Assembly: GCF_011057645.1 (NCBI RefSeq)
Contig: NZ_JAALGE010000018.1
Coordinates: 1-52,005 of the forward strand
From: Marisediminicola senii
Lineage (GTDB): Bacteria > Actinomycetota > Actinomycetes > Actinomycetales > Microbacteriaceae
Length of the DNA: 52,005 nucleotides
Direction of reading: 5' to 3'
Part shown: in pieces, positions 39,922 to 43,742 of the stretch
Layout: the number at the start of each line of letters is the position of its first letter
How positions within the stretch are numbered: the first letter of the stretch is position 1
The notes under the pieces: generated by a model
Told to the model about the DNA's origin: nothing
Database searches by the model: none
What the model saw: the letters and a program-made list of their open reading frames with translations, nothing else
Position numbers and translations under genes: made by a program

Positions 39922-42425
39922 TGCGCGTTCCCCTGAGCTGGCTGGGCGAATTCGTCGAGCTCGAAACCGGCACCACCCCCGACGCCGTGCATGCCGCCCT
40001 GGTCAAGGTCGGCCTCGAAGAGGAGGGCGTGCACGAGTTCGAGCTCAGCGGCCCGATCGTCGTCGGGCAGGTGCTCGAGTACGTCGACGAGCCGCAGAAG
40101 AACGGCAAGACCATCCGCTGGTGCCAGGTCGAGGTCGGAGAAGCCGAACCCCGCGGCATCGTCTGCGGCGCCCACAACTTCGCCGTCGGCGACAAGGTCG
40201 TGGTGTCGCTCCCCGGGGCGGTGCTGCCCGGCCCGTTCCCCATCGCCGCCCGCACCACCTACGGCCACGTCTCCGACGGCATGATCGCGTCGGCGCGCGA
40301 ACTCGGCCTCGGCGAGGAGCACGACGGCATCCTGGTGCTGTCGACGCTCGGGCTCGACCCGGCGCCCGGCACCGACGCCGTGTCGCTGTTGTCACTCGAC
40401 GACTCCGCCGTCGAGGTCAACGTCACGCCCGACCGCGGCTACGCGTTCTCCATTCGCGGAATCGCCCGGGAGTACAGCCACGCCACCGGCGCGGTGTTCC
40501 ACGACCCCGCGGCATCCGTCCCCCTCCTCGAACGGGCACTGGACGCCCCGGAGTTCCCGGTCGCCATCGACGACCGCGACCCCGTGCGCGGTCGCGTCGG
40601 CGCCACCGTATTCATCACCCGCGCCGTGCGCGGCATCGACCCCACCCGGCCGACCCCGCCGTGGATGATCGCGCGCCTCACCCTCGCGGGGGTCCGCTCC
40701 ATCTCGCTCACCGTCGACATCACCAACTACGTGATGCTCGAGCTCGGCCAGCCGCTGCACGCCTACGACCTCCAGGCCCTCGACGGCGGCATCACCGTGC
40801 GCCGGGCGAAGAAGGGCGAGAAGATCACGACGCTCGACGGTCGCGATCGCACCCTCGACGCGCAGGACCTGCTCATCACCGACGGGTCGGGCCCGATCGG
40901 GATCGCCGGCGTCATGGGCGGTGCCCGCACCGAGGTGACGGATGCCACCACCGACGTTCTCGTCGAGGCCGCGAACTTCGACCCGGTCTCCATCGCGCGC
41001 AGCGCCCGCCGGCACAAGCTGCCCAGCGAGGCGTCCCGCCGGTTCGAACGCGGCGTCGACCCCGCTGTCGCGGTCGCCGCGGCATCCCGTGCCGTGCAGT
41101 TGCTCGAGCAGCTCGCCGGGGGAGTCGCCGACGCGGTCGGATCCGACCACAGCACCCACCGGGCGCCCAGCGCGATCGAGCTGCCGACCGGCTACGTCGC
41201 CGCGCTCGTCGGCGTCGAGTACACCGCAGACGAGATCGAGCGCGCGCTCGCCGAGATCGGCGCGCGCATCGAGATGGTGGATGCCGGCCTGCTCGTCACC
41301 CCGCCGAGCTGGCGTCCCGACCTGACCGACAAGTCCACCCTCGCCGAGGAGGTGGCGCGCATCGACGGGTACCACCGCATCCCGTCGATCCTCCCCACCG
41401 CTCCTCCCGGGCGGGGACTCACGCGCGCCCAGCGCCTCCGCCGCAGCGTCTCCGCCCAGCTCGCGGCCGGGGGAGCGACCGAGGTGCTGTCGTACCCGTT
41501 CCTGTCGCAGCGCTCCAACGACCTGTTCGGCGCCGCCGCACCTGGGCCGGTCACGGCCATGCGCCTGGCGAACCCGCTCGACAGCGAGGCGCCGCTCCTG
41601 CGCACCTCGGTGCTGCCCGGGCTCATCGACATCGCCCGCCGCAACCTGTCGCGCGGCCTCACCGACCTCCGTCTCTACGAGGTCGGCACGGTGTTCCGCC
41701 CGGAAGCCGGCACGTCGTACGGCAGTGGTCCGCTGCCCGTGGGCAACGCGCGTCCGAGTGCCGAGGTACTCGCGGAGTTGAACGCCGGCATCCCGCCACA
41801 GCCGCGCCACGTCGGCGGGGTGATCCTCGGCAACGCGGTCGCCCGCCAGGTCGGGCAGCCCGCCGTCGCGGCATCCATCGCCGACGCCATCGCCGCCGCG
41901 CGCCAGGTCGGCGCGGCCGTCGCGGTGCAGGTCGACGTTCGACAGGGCTCGCACCAGGCCATGCACCCCGGGCGCACCGCCGAGCTGCTCGTGAACGGCA
42001 CCCCCGTCGGCTACGCCGGCGAACTGCTGCCATCGCTCGCGCACGACCTCGACCTGCCGCGCGTCGTTGCCGTCTGGGAGGTCGACCTCGACCGGGTCAT
42101 CGCGCTGGCACCGCTCGAGCCGTCGCCCTCGCCCATCGCCAGCTACCCCGCGGCGACCCAGGACCTCTCGCTGGTGGTCCCGGTCGATGTCGCCGCGGGA
42201 GAGGTGCTCGCAGCCGTGGTCGACGGATCGGGCGCCCTGCTCGAAGACGCCAGGCTCGTCGACGACTACCGCGGTGCCGGCCTGCCGGAGAACAGTAAGT
42301 CGCTGACATTCGCGTTGCGGTTCCGGGCACCCGATCGCACCCTGACAGCGGGGGAGGCGTCCGACTCGAAGCTGGCCGGCGCCGCCGTCGCCGCTGAGCG
42401 GTTCGGCGCGACCATCCGCGAATAA
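39921..42425 (+). CDS. pheT: Phenylalanine-tRNA ligase beta subunit
   Basis: 834 aa. [14 protein letters not shown] is the standard N-terminus. A tRNA-binding OB fold lies at about 40-155 (GPIVVGQVLEYVDEPQ), then the B3/B4 editing domain, B5, the catalytic-like core, and a C-terminal FDX-ACB anticodon-binding domain (SYPAATQDLSLVVPVDVAAGEVL to GEASDSKLAGAAVAAERFGATIRE). I chose ATG 39921, overlapping the pheS stop. A 7-bp inverted repeat (42460-42466 with 42484-42490) lies shortly after. Confidence 0.96.
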   Translation: MRVPLSWLGEFVELETGTTPDAVHAALVKVGLEEEGVHEFELSGPIVVGQVLEYVDEPQKNGKTIRWCQVEVGEAEPRGIVCGAHNFAVGDKVVVSLPGAVLPGPFPIAARTTYGHVSDGMIASARELGLGEEHDGILVLSTLGLDPAPGTDAVSLLSLDDSAVEVNVTPDRGYAFSIRGIAREYSHATGAVFHDPAASVPLLERALDAPEFPVAIDDRDPVRGRVGATVFITRAVRGIDPTRPTPPWMIARLTLAGVRSISLTVDITNYVMLELGQPLHAYDLQALDGGITVRRAKKGEKITTLDGRDRTLDAQDLLITDGSGPIGIAGVMGGARTEVTDATTDVLVEAANFDPVSIARSARRHKLPSEASRRFERGVDPAVAVAAASRAVQLLEQLAGGVADAVGSDHSTHRAPSAIELPTGYVAALVGVEYTADEIERALAEIGARIEMVDAGLLVTPPSWRPDLTDKSTLAEEVARIDGYHRIPSILPTAPPGRGLTRAQRLRRSVSAQLAAGGATEVLSYPFLSQRSNDLFGAAAPGPVTAMRLANPLDSEAPLLRTSVLPGLIDIARRNLSRGLTDLRLYEVGTVFRPEAGTSYGSGPLPVGNARPSAEVLAELNAGIPPQPRHVGGVILGNAVARQVGQPAVAASIADAIAAARQVGAAVAVQVDVRQGSHQAMHPGRTAELLVNGTPVGYAGELLPSLAHDLDLPRVVAVWEVDLDRVIALAPLEPSPSPIASYPAATQDLSLVVPVDVAAGEVLAAVVDGSGALLEDARLVDDYRGAGLPENSKSLTFALRFRAPDRTLTAGEASDSKLAGAAVAAERFGATIRE

Positions 42426-42492: not shown

Positions 42493-42522
42493 TTCGGCAT
42501 CCGCCCGATCACGCGCTACCCT
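42493..42522 (+). promoter_or_regulatory. Promoter of the arg operon leader (leaderless ORF)
   Basis: TTCGGC (42493-42498), 18 nt, TACCCT (42517-42522). The -10 ends 6 nt before the GTG at 42529, the spacing seen for leaderless genes throughout the window. Confidence 0.5.
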
Positions 42523-42528
42523 CATATC

Positions 42529-42630
42529 GTGGTCGACAACAACCGGTTCCCGCTGAGCTTCGTTCAGCAGAGCCCTGCCCTGCGACGTCGCATCGTCGGC
42601 GAGCGATTCCGGGCGCCACTCTTCCGCTGA
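42529..42630 (+). CDS. Candidate Arg-rich leader peptide of the arginine operon
   Basis: 33 aa from GTG 42529, encoding VVDNNRFPLSFVQQSPAL, then a run of three Arg (codons 19-21, CGA CGT CGC), and ending in four further Arg among twelve residues; seven Arg in total. It ends 65 nt before argC. A promoter -10 lies at leaderless distance. RNA stems overlap its second half (see the attenuator entry). I do not recognise it as a known protein; a role as a translation-sensing leader peptide is inferred from composition, position and structure. It could also be a chance ORF. Confidence 0.5.
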   Translation: MVDNNRFPLSFVQQSPALRRRIVGERFRAPLFR

Positions 42631-42678
42631 GCGCAGGCTCGCCATGGAGTGTCGCCGGATCCTTTCCTCGTCCACTCC
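42598..42678 (+). promoter_or_regulatory. Candidate arginine attenuator, competing RNA stems
   Basis: Stem A pairs GGCGAGC (42598-42604) with GCTCGCC (42637-42643). Stem B pairs GGCGCCACTC (42612-42621) with GAGTGTCGCC (42647-42656), nine of ten bases. Stem C pairs GGAGTG (42646-42651) with CACTCC (42673-42678). A and C can coexist; B excludes both. A ribosome stalled at the Arg codons (42583-42591) would cover the left arm of A and favour B. Stem C is weak and lacks a U-tract, so the off-state mechanism is unclear. Confidence 0.45.
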
Positions 42679-42695
42679 TCTCCGAAGGTTGAGCA

Positions 42696-43742
42696 ATGTC
42701 CCTCACAGTCGCCGTCGCAGGCGCAAGCGGGTACGCCGGTGGTGAGCTGCTGAGGCTCCTCGCAGCGCACCCCGAATTCGAGGTCACCACGGTGACCGCC
42801 CACAGCAACGCCGGTCAGAAGCTCGGCACCGTACAGCCCCACCTCCGGTCGATGGCCGACCTCACCCTGGTCGAGACCACGCCCGAGACCCTCGCCGGCC
42901 ACGACATCGTGTTCCTCGCCCTGCCGCACGGCGCGTCCGGCCCGGTCACCGCCGGCCTCGGCGACGACGCCCTCGTGGTCGACTGCGGAGCCGACCACCG
43001 GCTCGAGGACGAAGCCGACTGGGCCGCCTACTACGGGGGCGACTACGCCGGCGCGTGGACCTACGGCCTGCCGGAGCTCGTGCTCGACGGCGGTTCCACC
43101 CAGCGCGACAAGCTCGTCGGGGCTCGCCGCATCGCGGTTCCCGGCTGCAACGCGACCGCGGTCACGCTCGCGCTCGCCCCCGGGATCCGCGCGGGAGTGA
43201 TCGATGCCGACGACATCGTGGCCGTGCTCGCGGTCGGAACCTCCGGCGCGGGAAAGAGCCTGCGCGCCGACCTCCTCTACAGCGAGCAGACCGGCTCCGC
43301 CGTGCCGTACGCGGTCGGCGGCAGCCACCGGCACAACCCCGAGATCCGCCAGAACCTCGGCGCCGCGGGAGGAACCGACGTCACCATGTCGTTCACCCCG
43401 GTGCTCGTTCCCATGTCGCGGGGCATCCTCGCCACCGCGACGGCGAAGCTCGCCGGCGGCATCCGGCCCGCGGACGTCAGATCGGCTTGGGAGCTGGCCT
43501 ACGCCAACGAACCCTTCGTGCACCTGCTCCCCGAGGGGACCTCCCCGCGCTCTGGCGACACCACGGGCGCCAACACGGCCCTGATCGGCGTGGCAGTCGA
43601 CGAGGCATCCGGCCGGGTCGTCACCGTCACCGCGATTGACAACCTCGTCAAGGGCACCGCCGGCGCCGCCATCCAGTCGGCCAACATCGCCCTCGGCCTC
43701 CCCGAGGCCATGGGCCTCCCCGTCGACGGAGTCGCACCATGA
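42696..43742 (+). CDS. argC: N-acetyl-gamma-glutamyl-phosphate reductase ArgC
   Basis: 348 aa. An NADPH-dependent reductase of N-acetylglutamyl phosphate. The N-terminal Rossmann loop is [16 protein letters not shown]; the catalytic Cys is C151 in [17 protein letters not shown] carries the conserved His. CGAAGG lies 8 nt before the ATG. Its end overlaps argJ (ATGA). First structural gene of the arg operon. Confidence 0.96.

Follow-up and report, generated by a model that had tools for sequence, protein, structure and literature searches.

Organization of the region upstream of argC

The window (the whole stretch of 52,005 nt that was analyzed) contains a run of genes that was read from the translations as pheS-pheT-argCJBDFGH; by the same reading argR is absent between argF and argG in this run. 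In the gap between the end of pheT at 42425 and the start of argC at 42696 lies a short ORF, here called the leader ORF, in the company of a putative promoter element, a hairpin (P2) and the Shine-Dalgarno sequence of argC (Table 1). The leader product is VVDNNRFPLSFVQQSPALRRRIVGERFRAPLFR. Two of its seven arginine codons are CGA (42583-42585 and 42604-42606), and 65 nt separate its TGA from the ATG of argC. A preliminary description of this DNA had reported the geometry of the ORF with 33 codons, seven Arg, a run of three consecutive Arg, the spacing of 65 nt and a −10 hexamer TACCCT, and our re-reading of the sequence agrees with it. A search of the window against Rfam gave 0 matches above the gathering score.

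Table 1. Features of the leader region and of argC in the window, in order of position.
Feature	Position	Strand	Remark
Putative −10 hexamer TACCCT	42517..42522	+	6 nt before the leader GTG; leaderless promoter as judged by sequence
Leader ORF	42529..42630	+	GTG start, 33 codons, 7 Arg, TGA ends at 42630; probably leaderless
Arg triplet CGA CGT CGC	42583..42591	+	three consecutive codons of the leader
Candidate outer stem P1, 5' strand GGCGAG	42598..42603	+	pairs with 42667-42672
Invariant CGA Arg codon, likely stall codon	42604..42606	+	8 nt before the P2 5' arm
P2 5' arm GGCGCCACTC	42612..42621	+	conserved hairpin
P2 3' arm GAGTGTCGCC	42647..42656	+	conserved hairpin
Candidate outer stem P1, 3' strand CTCGTC	42667..42672	+	pairs with 42598-42603
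Shine-Dalgarno sequence of argC, AAGG	42685..42688	+	conservation of the AAGG columns is 90% or more over 73 loci
argC	42696..43742	+	first gene of the run read as argCJBDFGH; start codon ATG at 42696

Occurrence in the Microbacteriaceae

To describe the leader in relatives of the window we gathered 210 argC loci, 197 of them unique, argC being detected in 285 of 299 genomes of the family. A leader was scored by an ORF rule that asks for a short ORF with at least four Arg codons, starting 4-10 nt after a TANNNT motif and ending before argC; 89 of the 197 unique loci contain one. After near-identical leader loci were dropped, 73 non-redundant loci were left and served as the training set of a covariance model (R1), which begins 24 nt ahead of the P2 arm and runs as far as the argC start.

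R1 has exactly one match per genome in 149 of the 299 Microbacteriaceae genomes, covering 47 of 85 genera; the other 150 genomes gave no match under strict filters, which lose weak matches. Where the position of argC was known the match adjoins it in 106 of 107 cases (the exception is G120). Of the other 42 matches, for which no argC position was listed, all except G259 and G127 were fetched; 39 of these 40 continue into an ArgC-like N-terminus, L252 being the one that does not, and 36 of the 40 carry an Arg-rich ORF when the same minimum of four Arg is applied, while four do not.

How far these matches reach beyond the training set was judged by sequence identity. Of the 106 argC-linked matches 47 lie outside the training list, many of them close relatives of training loci. 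Among the 33 of these that were compared, 15 share at least 93% identity with a training locus (complete identity in three), six fall at 80-93% and 12 below 80%; the 14 outside this comparison include G117, whose coordinates are those of training locus L058. The corresponding numbers for the 40 later loci are three (one identical), nine and 28. The model thus found 40 loci whose identity to any training locus stays below 80% (12 of 33 and 28 of 40), with the reservation, valid for all counts over relatives, that the loci are not independent.

In a run on 80 named loci R1 matched 19, including loci from Salinibacterium, Rhodoglobus, Ruicaihuangia, Galbitalea, Schumannella, Curtobacterium and Frigoribacterium; one locus of the training set, L060, escaped detection here at E 0.01. 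The same run gave no match on the 29 loci L082-L110 from Bifidobacterium, Actinomyces, Corynebacterium and others, some of them MAGs. In a sample of genomes from the whole order 15 of 18 family members were matched, compared to four of 230 genomes outside the family, and these four matches are weak (E 0.005-0.05) and are taken as chance. A relaxed pattern of the element, applied to the window, gave three matches against 2.88 expected.

By sequence comparison the leader ORF is real and conserved, and the conservation of the leader element far exceeds chance. The preliminary description had named a lack of conservation in relatives as a reason to give its idea up; this was checked, and given the R1 matches the idea survived.

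A putative leaderless start

A TANNNT motif occurs 6 or 7 nt ahead of the in-frame start in 64 of the 73 training loci, and also in 35 of 38 loci found after the model was built, for which no Arg filter was applied. The background of this spacing is 7 in 2600 start-offset combinations. Judged from this promoter spacing the leader is probably leaderless.

The region before argC was inspected in the same manner. Our script flagged TAAGGT as a possible leaderless promoter of argC, a reading we set aside; it is simpler to regard the motif as the Shine-Dalgarno sequence, as the AAGG is conserved at the level given in Table 1 and the flanking T and A vary. We nevertheless report that in many leader loci this Shine-Dalgarno region reads as TANNNT 6-7 nt before the argC start, and that a second, leaderless argC transcript may arise there. 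Three loci without the leader element, L016 (Rathayibacter-type), L054 (Herbiconiux) and L072 (Gulosibacter), have TANNNT 6-7 nt before argC itself, and by their sequence these argC genes may be leaderless and under different control.

An invariant CGA codon and the choice of arginine codons

Arg clusters are frequent in other leaders of the family as well, among the loci selected by the ORF rule. The preliminary description had expected a ribosome to stall at the run of three Arg codons, which did not prove to be the codons at a fixed place; that place is occupied by the later CGA at 42604-42606. A CGA lies 8 nt ahead of the P2 arm in 100 of 100 full-length alignment rows (94 distinct, 40 of those from the training set), and all 100 rows share the column pattern C-G-A, five nucleotides, G-G-C-G. 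The CGA is in frame with the leader in 72 of the 73 training loci; in the single exception the arm was mis-called by the script pattern. The stop codon of the leader, in turn, lies across the first base of the arm (−1) in 41 of the 73 loci and 19 nt further on (−19) in 29, with three others. As the position of the stop varies and the spacing of the CGA is fixed, it is the distance from the Arg codon that is kept and not the distance from the stop.

We then counted the Arg codons of the leaders. The 1945 leader codons of the 73 loci include 559 for Arg (CGC 270, CGA 131, CGT 127, CGG 30, AGG 1), so that CGC, CGA and CGT make up 528 of 559. In argC stretches of the same loci the 545 Arg codons are distributed differently (CGC 261, CGG 175, CGT 44, AGG 29, CGA 27, AGA 9), CGG being common there with 175 of 545 and nearly absent from the leaders with 30 of 559. 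For the joint share of CGC, CGA and CGT in leader versus argC Fisher's test gives p = 2e-44, whereby the loci are not independent. The total of 559 compares to a shuffle mean of 397, a difference that is biased upward by the requirement of at least four Arg in the ORF rule.

The genome of the window has one tRNA-Arg each with the anticodons ACG, CCG, TCT and CCT, and none with TCG was found among its 47 tRNA matches (46 confirmed by ARAGORN). In the ACG anticodon A34 is converted to inosine, which reads CGA poorly. Codon choice and the tRNA set together are an argument that the leaders point at one isoacceptor, and CGA should be the slowest codon of that isoacceptor, at the critical place.

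One might ask whether DNA of high G+C content would yield Arg-rich ORFs and hairpins anyway. Arg codons are indeed common in all frames, with a share of 0.287 in frame and of 0.134 and 0.186 in the other two. Against this stand the single argC-linked match per genome across so many genera, the invariant CGA and the promoter spacing, and we give chance next to no weight as an explanation.

The coding signal of the leader is a further aspect. Among changed codons the synonymous ones make up 80 of 276 in frame; in the other two frames they make up 60 of 280 and 59 of 278. Substitutions at the three codon positions number 116, 124 and 143 (35 pairs). This weak peptide-coding signal fits a codon sensor, and is no proof of translation. 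It also bears on the suggestion that the leader product is itself a small basic protein with a function, for which the recurring Arg clusters would speak. Such a protein is barely credible in view of the weak synonymous signal, of leaders that vary in sequence, in length (18-42 codons) and in their C-terminus, and of 17 loci that have no separate peptide at all (see below).

Absence of ArgR

The two ArgR domains PF02863 and PF01316 were each found in 0 of the 299 family genomes, the genome of the window included. In the order as a whole PF02863 is present in 224 of 248 genomes; the 24 misses consist of 18 Microbacteriaceae and six genomes from two other families, so that outside the Microbacteriaceae 224 of 230 genomes have the domain. 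Control by the ArgR repressor would concern the same operon, and presumably the same signal, as the leader. The two differ in that no ArgR domains were detected in the Microbacteriaceae, and in that control by the leader would act in cis on the RNA.

The hairpin P2 and other stems

In each of the six loci of the genus P2 retains 8-9 of its 10 pairs, its predicted energy in the window is −24.1 kcal/mol (z −2.77), and counterparts were found across the family. The z-scores over loci have a mean of −3.59, with 96 of 111 below −2, a flattering value since the arms were chosen for pairing; the set comprises 111 of 113 loci, L240 and L245 being left out because the pattern fell on the wrong site. 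Sliding the partners of P2 against each other drops pairing from 89% to 18%-79%.

At the base of P2 GGCG pairs with CGCC, and as this part is nearly invariant covariation has to rest on the upper pairs. Pair 31-113 occurs as GC in 61, AU in six and GU in four loci. Cells changed on both sides number 24 compared to 12.2 in shuffles, while the number of pairs with two-sided changes, three, does not stand out, 289 of 500 shuffles having at least three. The bases of pair 29-115 do not pair in 32 of 73 loci, nor do those of pair 32-111 in 23 of 73. An analysis of covariation over all column pairs was set aside, as it was dominated by pairs that do not base-pair.

In the six loci of the genus (the window and its counterparts L002-L006) the leader stretch 42561-42568 (CGTTCAGC) is invariant. 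Its complementarity to the 5' side of the P2 loop would allow 5-8 of 8 pairs in these loci, and it is possibly an extra element specific to the genus.

The preliminary description had drawn P2 as the middle one of three mutually exclusive stems. Of this picture P2 stood, and the two other stems, which were compared within the genus only, turned out to be poorly kept. The stem 42598-42604/42637-42643 forms 7, 7, 6, 7, 5 and 4 of 7 pairs in the six loci, two of which, nearly identical, share a single replacement of C-G by U-A, and the stem 42646-42651/42673-42678 forms 6, 4, 4, 4, 5 and 2 of 6; we ruled both out as well-kept elements. Nor does a stable alternative structure appear downstream of P2, the fold of the stalled state having a mean z of −0.09. 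Pairing of the argC start region with the 3' arm (mean z 0.26) or with the Arg codons and the 5' arm (0.12) was likewise rejected, and pairing of the Arg codons with the P2 5' arm, as a competing antiterminator would require, has a mean z of −0.22.

An intrinsic terminator was rejected as well. T runs in the 15 nt that follow P2 are short, the longest measuring 1-2 nt in 101 of 111 loci and no more than four in any locus, so that a U-tract is missing, and a terminator scan gave 0. The linker 3' of P2 consists of 45% C and 20% G. These results have to be held against a classical attenuator of the trp type, in which the three stems would be antiterminator, terminator and pause hairpin and a ribosome at the stop codon would decide between them. 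Arg codons and a hairpin that overlaps the end of the leader would suit such a device, and the first stem is fully paired in three of six loci, two of them nearly identical. The missing U-tract, the lack of structure downstream of a stalled ribosome, the poorly kept third stem and a stop position that varies where the CGA spacing does not all speak against it, and we consider a trp-type attenuator very unlikely.

The candidate outer stem P1 would enclose P2. It has 5-6 of 6 pairs in all six loci of the genus, and the composite fold of P1 and P2 has a predicted energy of −36.5 kcal/mol (z −2.36). Over the family the signal of P1 is weak, with a mean z of −0.54 compared to −0.05 in the control.

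Proposed mechanism and output step

In relatives of the window, too, a short ORF enriched in Arg codons precedes an arginine operon, and the P2 arm is placed where a ribosome at the sensor codon would prevent the hairpin. Conservation, the invariant distance between CGA and hairpin, the codon choice and the absence of ArgR together lend strong support to arginine-dependent attenuation. We consider it likely, from the sequences, that a ribosome-mediated attenuator upstream of argC senses charged tRNA-Arg. The idea of arginine attenuation put forward in the preliminary description is therefore upheld by these four observations, its three-stem picture is not.

The mRNA would start at or beside the GTG, and a ribosome would translate the Arg-rich leader at once. 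If charged tRNA-Arg, namely the species with the ACG anticodon, is short, the ribosome would wait with the invariant CGA in its A site. A ribosome placed in this way reaches approximately 12-15 nt downstream. The leading edge of the waiting ribosome would hence cover the GGCG at the base of P2, P2 would be blocked and argC to argH would be on. With ample arginine the ribosome would read on and leave, P2, perhaps extended by P1, could fold, and expression would fall. The leaderless start, the stalling, the response to arginine and the output step are aspects that we infer.

For the output step our first choice, to which we give about an even chance, is premature termination or pausing of transcription without a U-tract, perhaps assisted by Rho in the C-rich linker. 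An effect on the translation of argC is possible and distinctly less probable; RNA decay as the output seems unlikely. Masking of the Shine-Dalgarno sequence by P2 was rejected, as the predicted opening energies show no consistent effect: for the argC start region the means are 6.51 kcal/mol in the full leader, 5.70 kcal/mol from the P2 arm onward and 6.30 kcal/mol in the stalled state, and subtracting the stalled from the full value gives more than 0.5 in 25 of 73 loci and less than −0.5 in 27.

The same values bear on a translational attenuator in the style of the mycobacterial poly-cysteine leaders, in which the closed P1+P2 structure would hinder initiation at argC and a stalled ribosome would open it. 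The layout is the same in both, a short ORF (probably leaderless in front of argC) with sensor codons followed by a gene with a Shine-Dalgarno sequence; the 3' strand of P1 ends 12 nt before that sequence, and the pairing of P1 in the genus and the composite fold would fit. While one must keep this in mind, the inconsistent sign of the opening energies and the weak signal of P1 over the family make this alternative rather doubtful.

A form embedded in pheT

In 17 loci without a separate leader ORF (L112, L118, L140, L162, L132, L145, L156, L168, L191, L161, L205, L056, L057, L229, L240, L245 and L253) the 5' half of the element is the 3' end of pheT itself, which encodes GERFGATLRD or a close variant; four of the 17 came to light among the 40 loci fetched later. 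The CGA codon and the 5' arm of P2 are here supplied by pheT, whose stop lies 19 nt from the start of the arm and 55-77 nt before argC.

We compared the PheT codons of the loci whose PheT end fit the script pattern (102 of the 197 unique loci). At the critical Arg pheT uses CGA in 13 of 13 embedded loci of this set, compared to six of 44 loci with a separate leader and one of 45 with neither (Fisher p = 8e-12, the loci coming from few genera, some nearly identical, and not being independent). GGG encodes the Gly ahead of GCG in 13 of 13 embedded loci, compared to seven of 44 with a separate leader and eight of 45 with neither.

Free-standing leaders also recall pheT. Leader tails such as RRFSATSHR and GERFGAPL resemble the C-terminus of PheT, ERFGATLRE, and in leaders of the 19-nt class the tail has the same length to the stop as the PheT C-terminus. 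From this likeness we infer a common origin of leader tail and PheT C-terminus, in either direction.

The resemblance and the equal distance to the stop in one class could also mean that the region is a relic without a regulatory role, left by a duplication of the pheT 3' end and preserved through similarity of coding. This is most improbable: the 3' arm, the linker and the Shine-Dalgarno sequence lie outside pheT and are yet part of the model, the leader peptides diverge but retain the CGA, the GGCG and the hairpin, and PheT uses CGA at this place in just six of the 44 examined loci with a separate leader. Returning to a regulatory origin, we would give somewhat less than even weight to the following course of events. 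The sensor began as the tail of pheT, whose last codons (GAG CGA TTC GGG GCG ACG, within ERFGATLRD) serve in some members as leader and half of the hairpin for argCJBDFGH; in most of the other members, after the family had parted with ArgR or while it did so, a copy of the tail gained a leaderless promoter of its own together with additional Arg codons, and so turned into a free-standing attenuator.

Relation to known systems

Leader-peptide attenuation, leaderless sensor ORFs of mycobacteria and Arg-codon leaders for other genes are already known. In the mycobacterial poly-cysteine type several operons of a genome share the device, and its mechanism is masking of the RBS. The argC leader differs in that it occurs at one locus per genome and shows no predicted RBS masking; it concerns arginine and not cysteine, has a single invariant CGA followed at 8 nt by a GC hairpin, belongs to a family without ArgR and has a version built from pheT. 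The likeness to the poly-cysteine attenuators (Canestrari et al. 2020, via PMC9031893; cited in PMC13236596; related: PMC4633059) lies in a short ORF that is leaderless, or probably so in the case of argC, in sensor codons, in genes for the sensed amino acid downstream, and in an elongation speed that would set downstream translation.

Arg codons that sense arginine have been described in two other leaders. The orf34 leader of Salmonella speF acts through Rho, RBS masking and RNA decay (PMC6386406); unlike the argC leader it controls ornithine decarboxylase and not arginine synthesis, has a Shine-Dalgarno sequence and belongs to another structure and phylum. In the rbfL leader of Staphylococcus aureus rare Arg codons of the leader peptide are the sensor (PMC13009471). 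There, pausing represses the downstream gene, a biofilm regulator, by blocking the RBS, which sets it apart from the argC leader.

For Actinobacteria, attenuation of trp, ilv, leu and cys operons was predicted in a survey of 2005, the cys leaders being without obvious terminators (PMC1262725). With these the argC leader shares a leader peptide with regulatory codons. RNA control of arginine operons was not seen in Actinobacteria in that survey (PMC1262725), and the argC leader element runs against this. A published argC leader peptide in Microbacteriaceae was not among the literature matches listed.

From the element one can predict how, in the absence of ArgR, a large actinobacterial family regulates its arginine synthesis. 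With one invariant CGA, and in the genome of the window only the tRNA with the ACG anticodon to read it, it would offer a clean case for identifying the Arg codon and the tRNA on which a ribosome sensor relies. The embedded loci further indicate that the end of an essential synthetase gene may act as the leader peptide for a neighboring operon.
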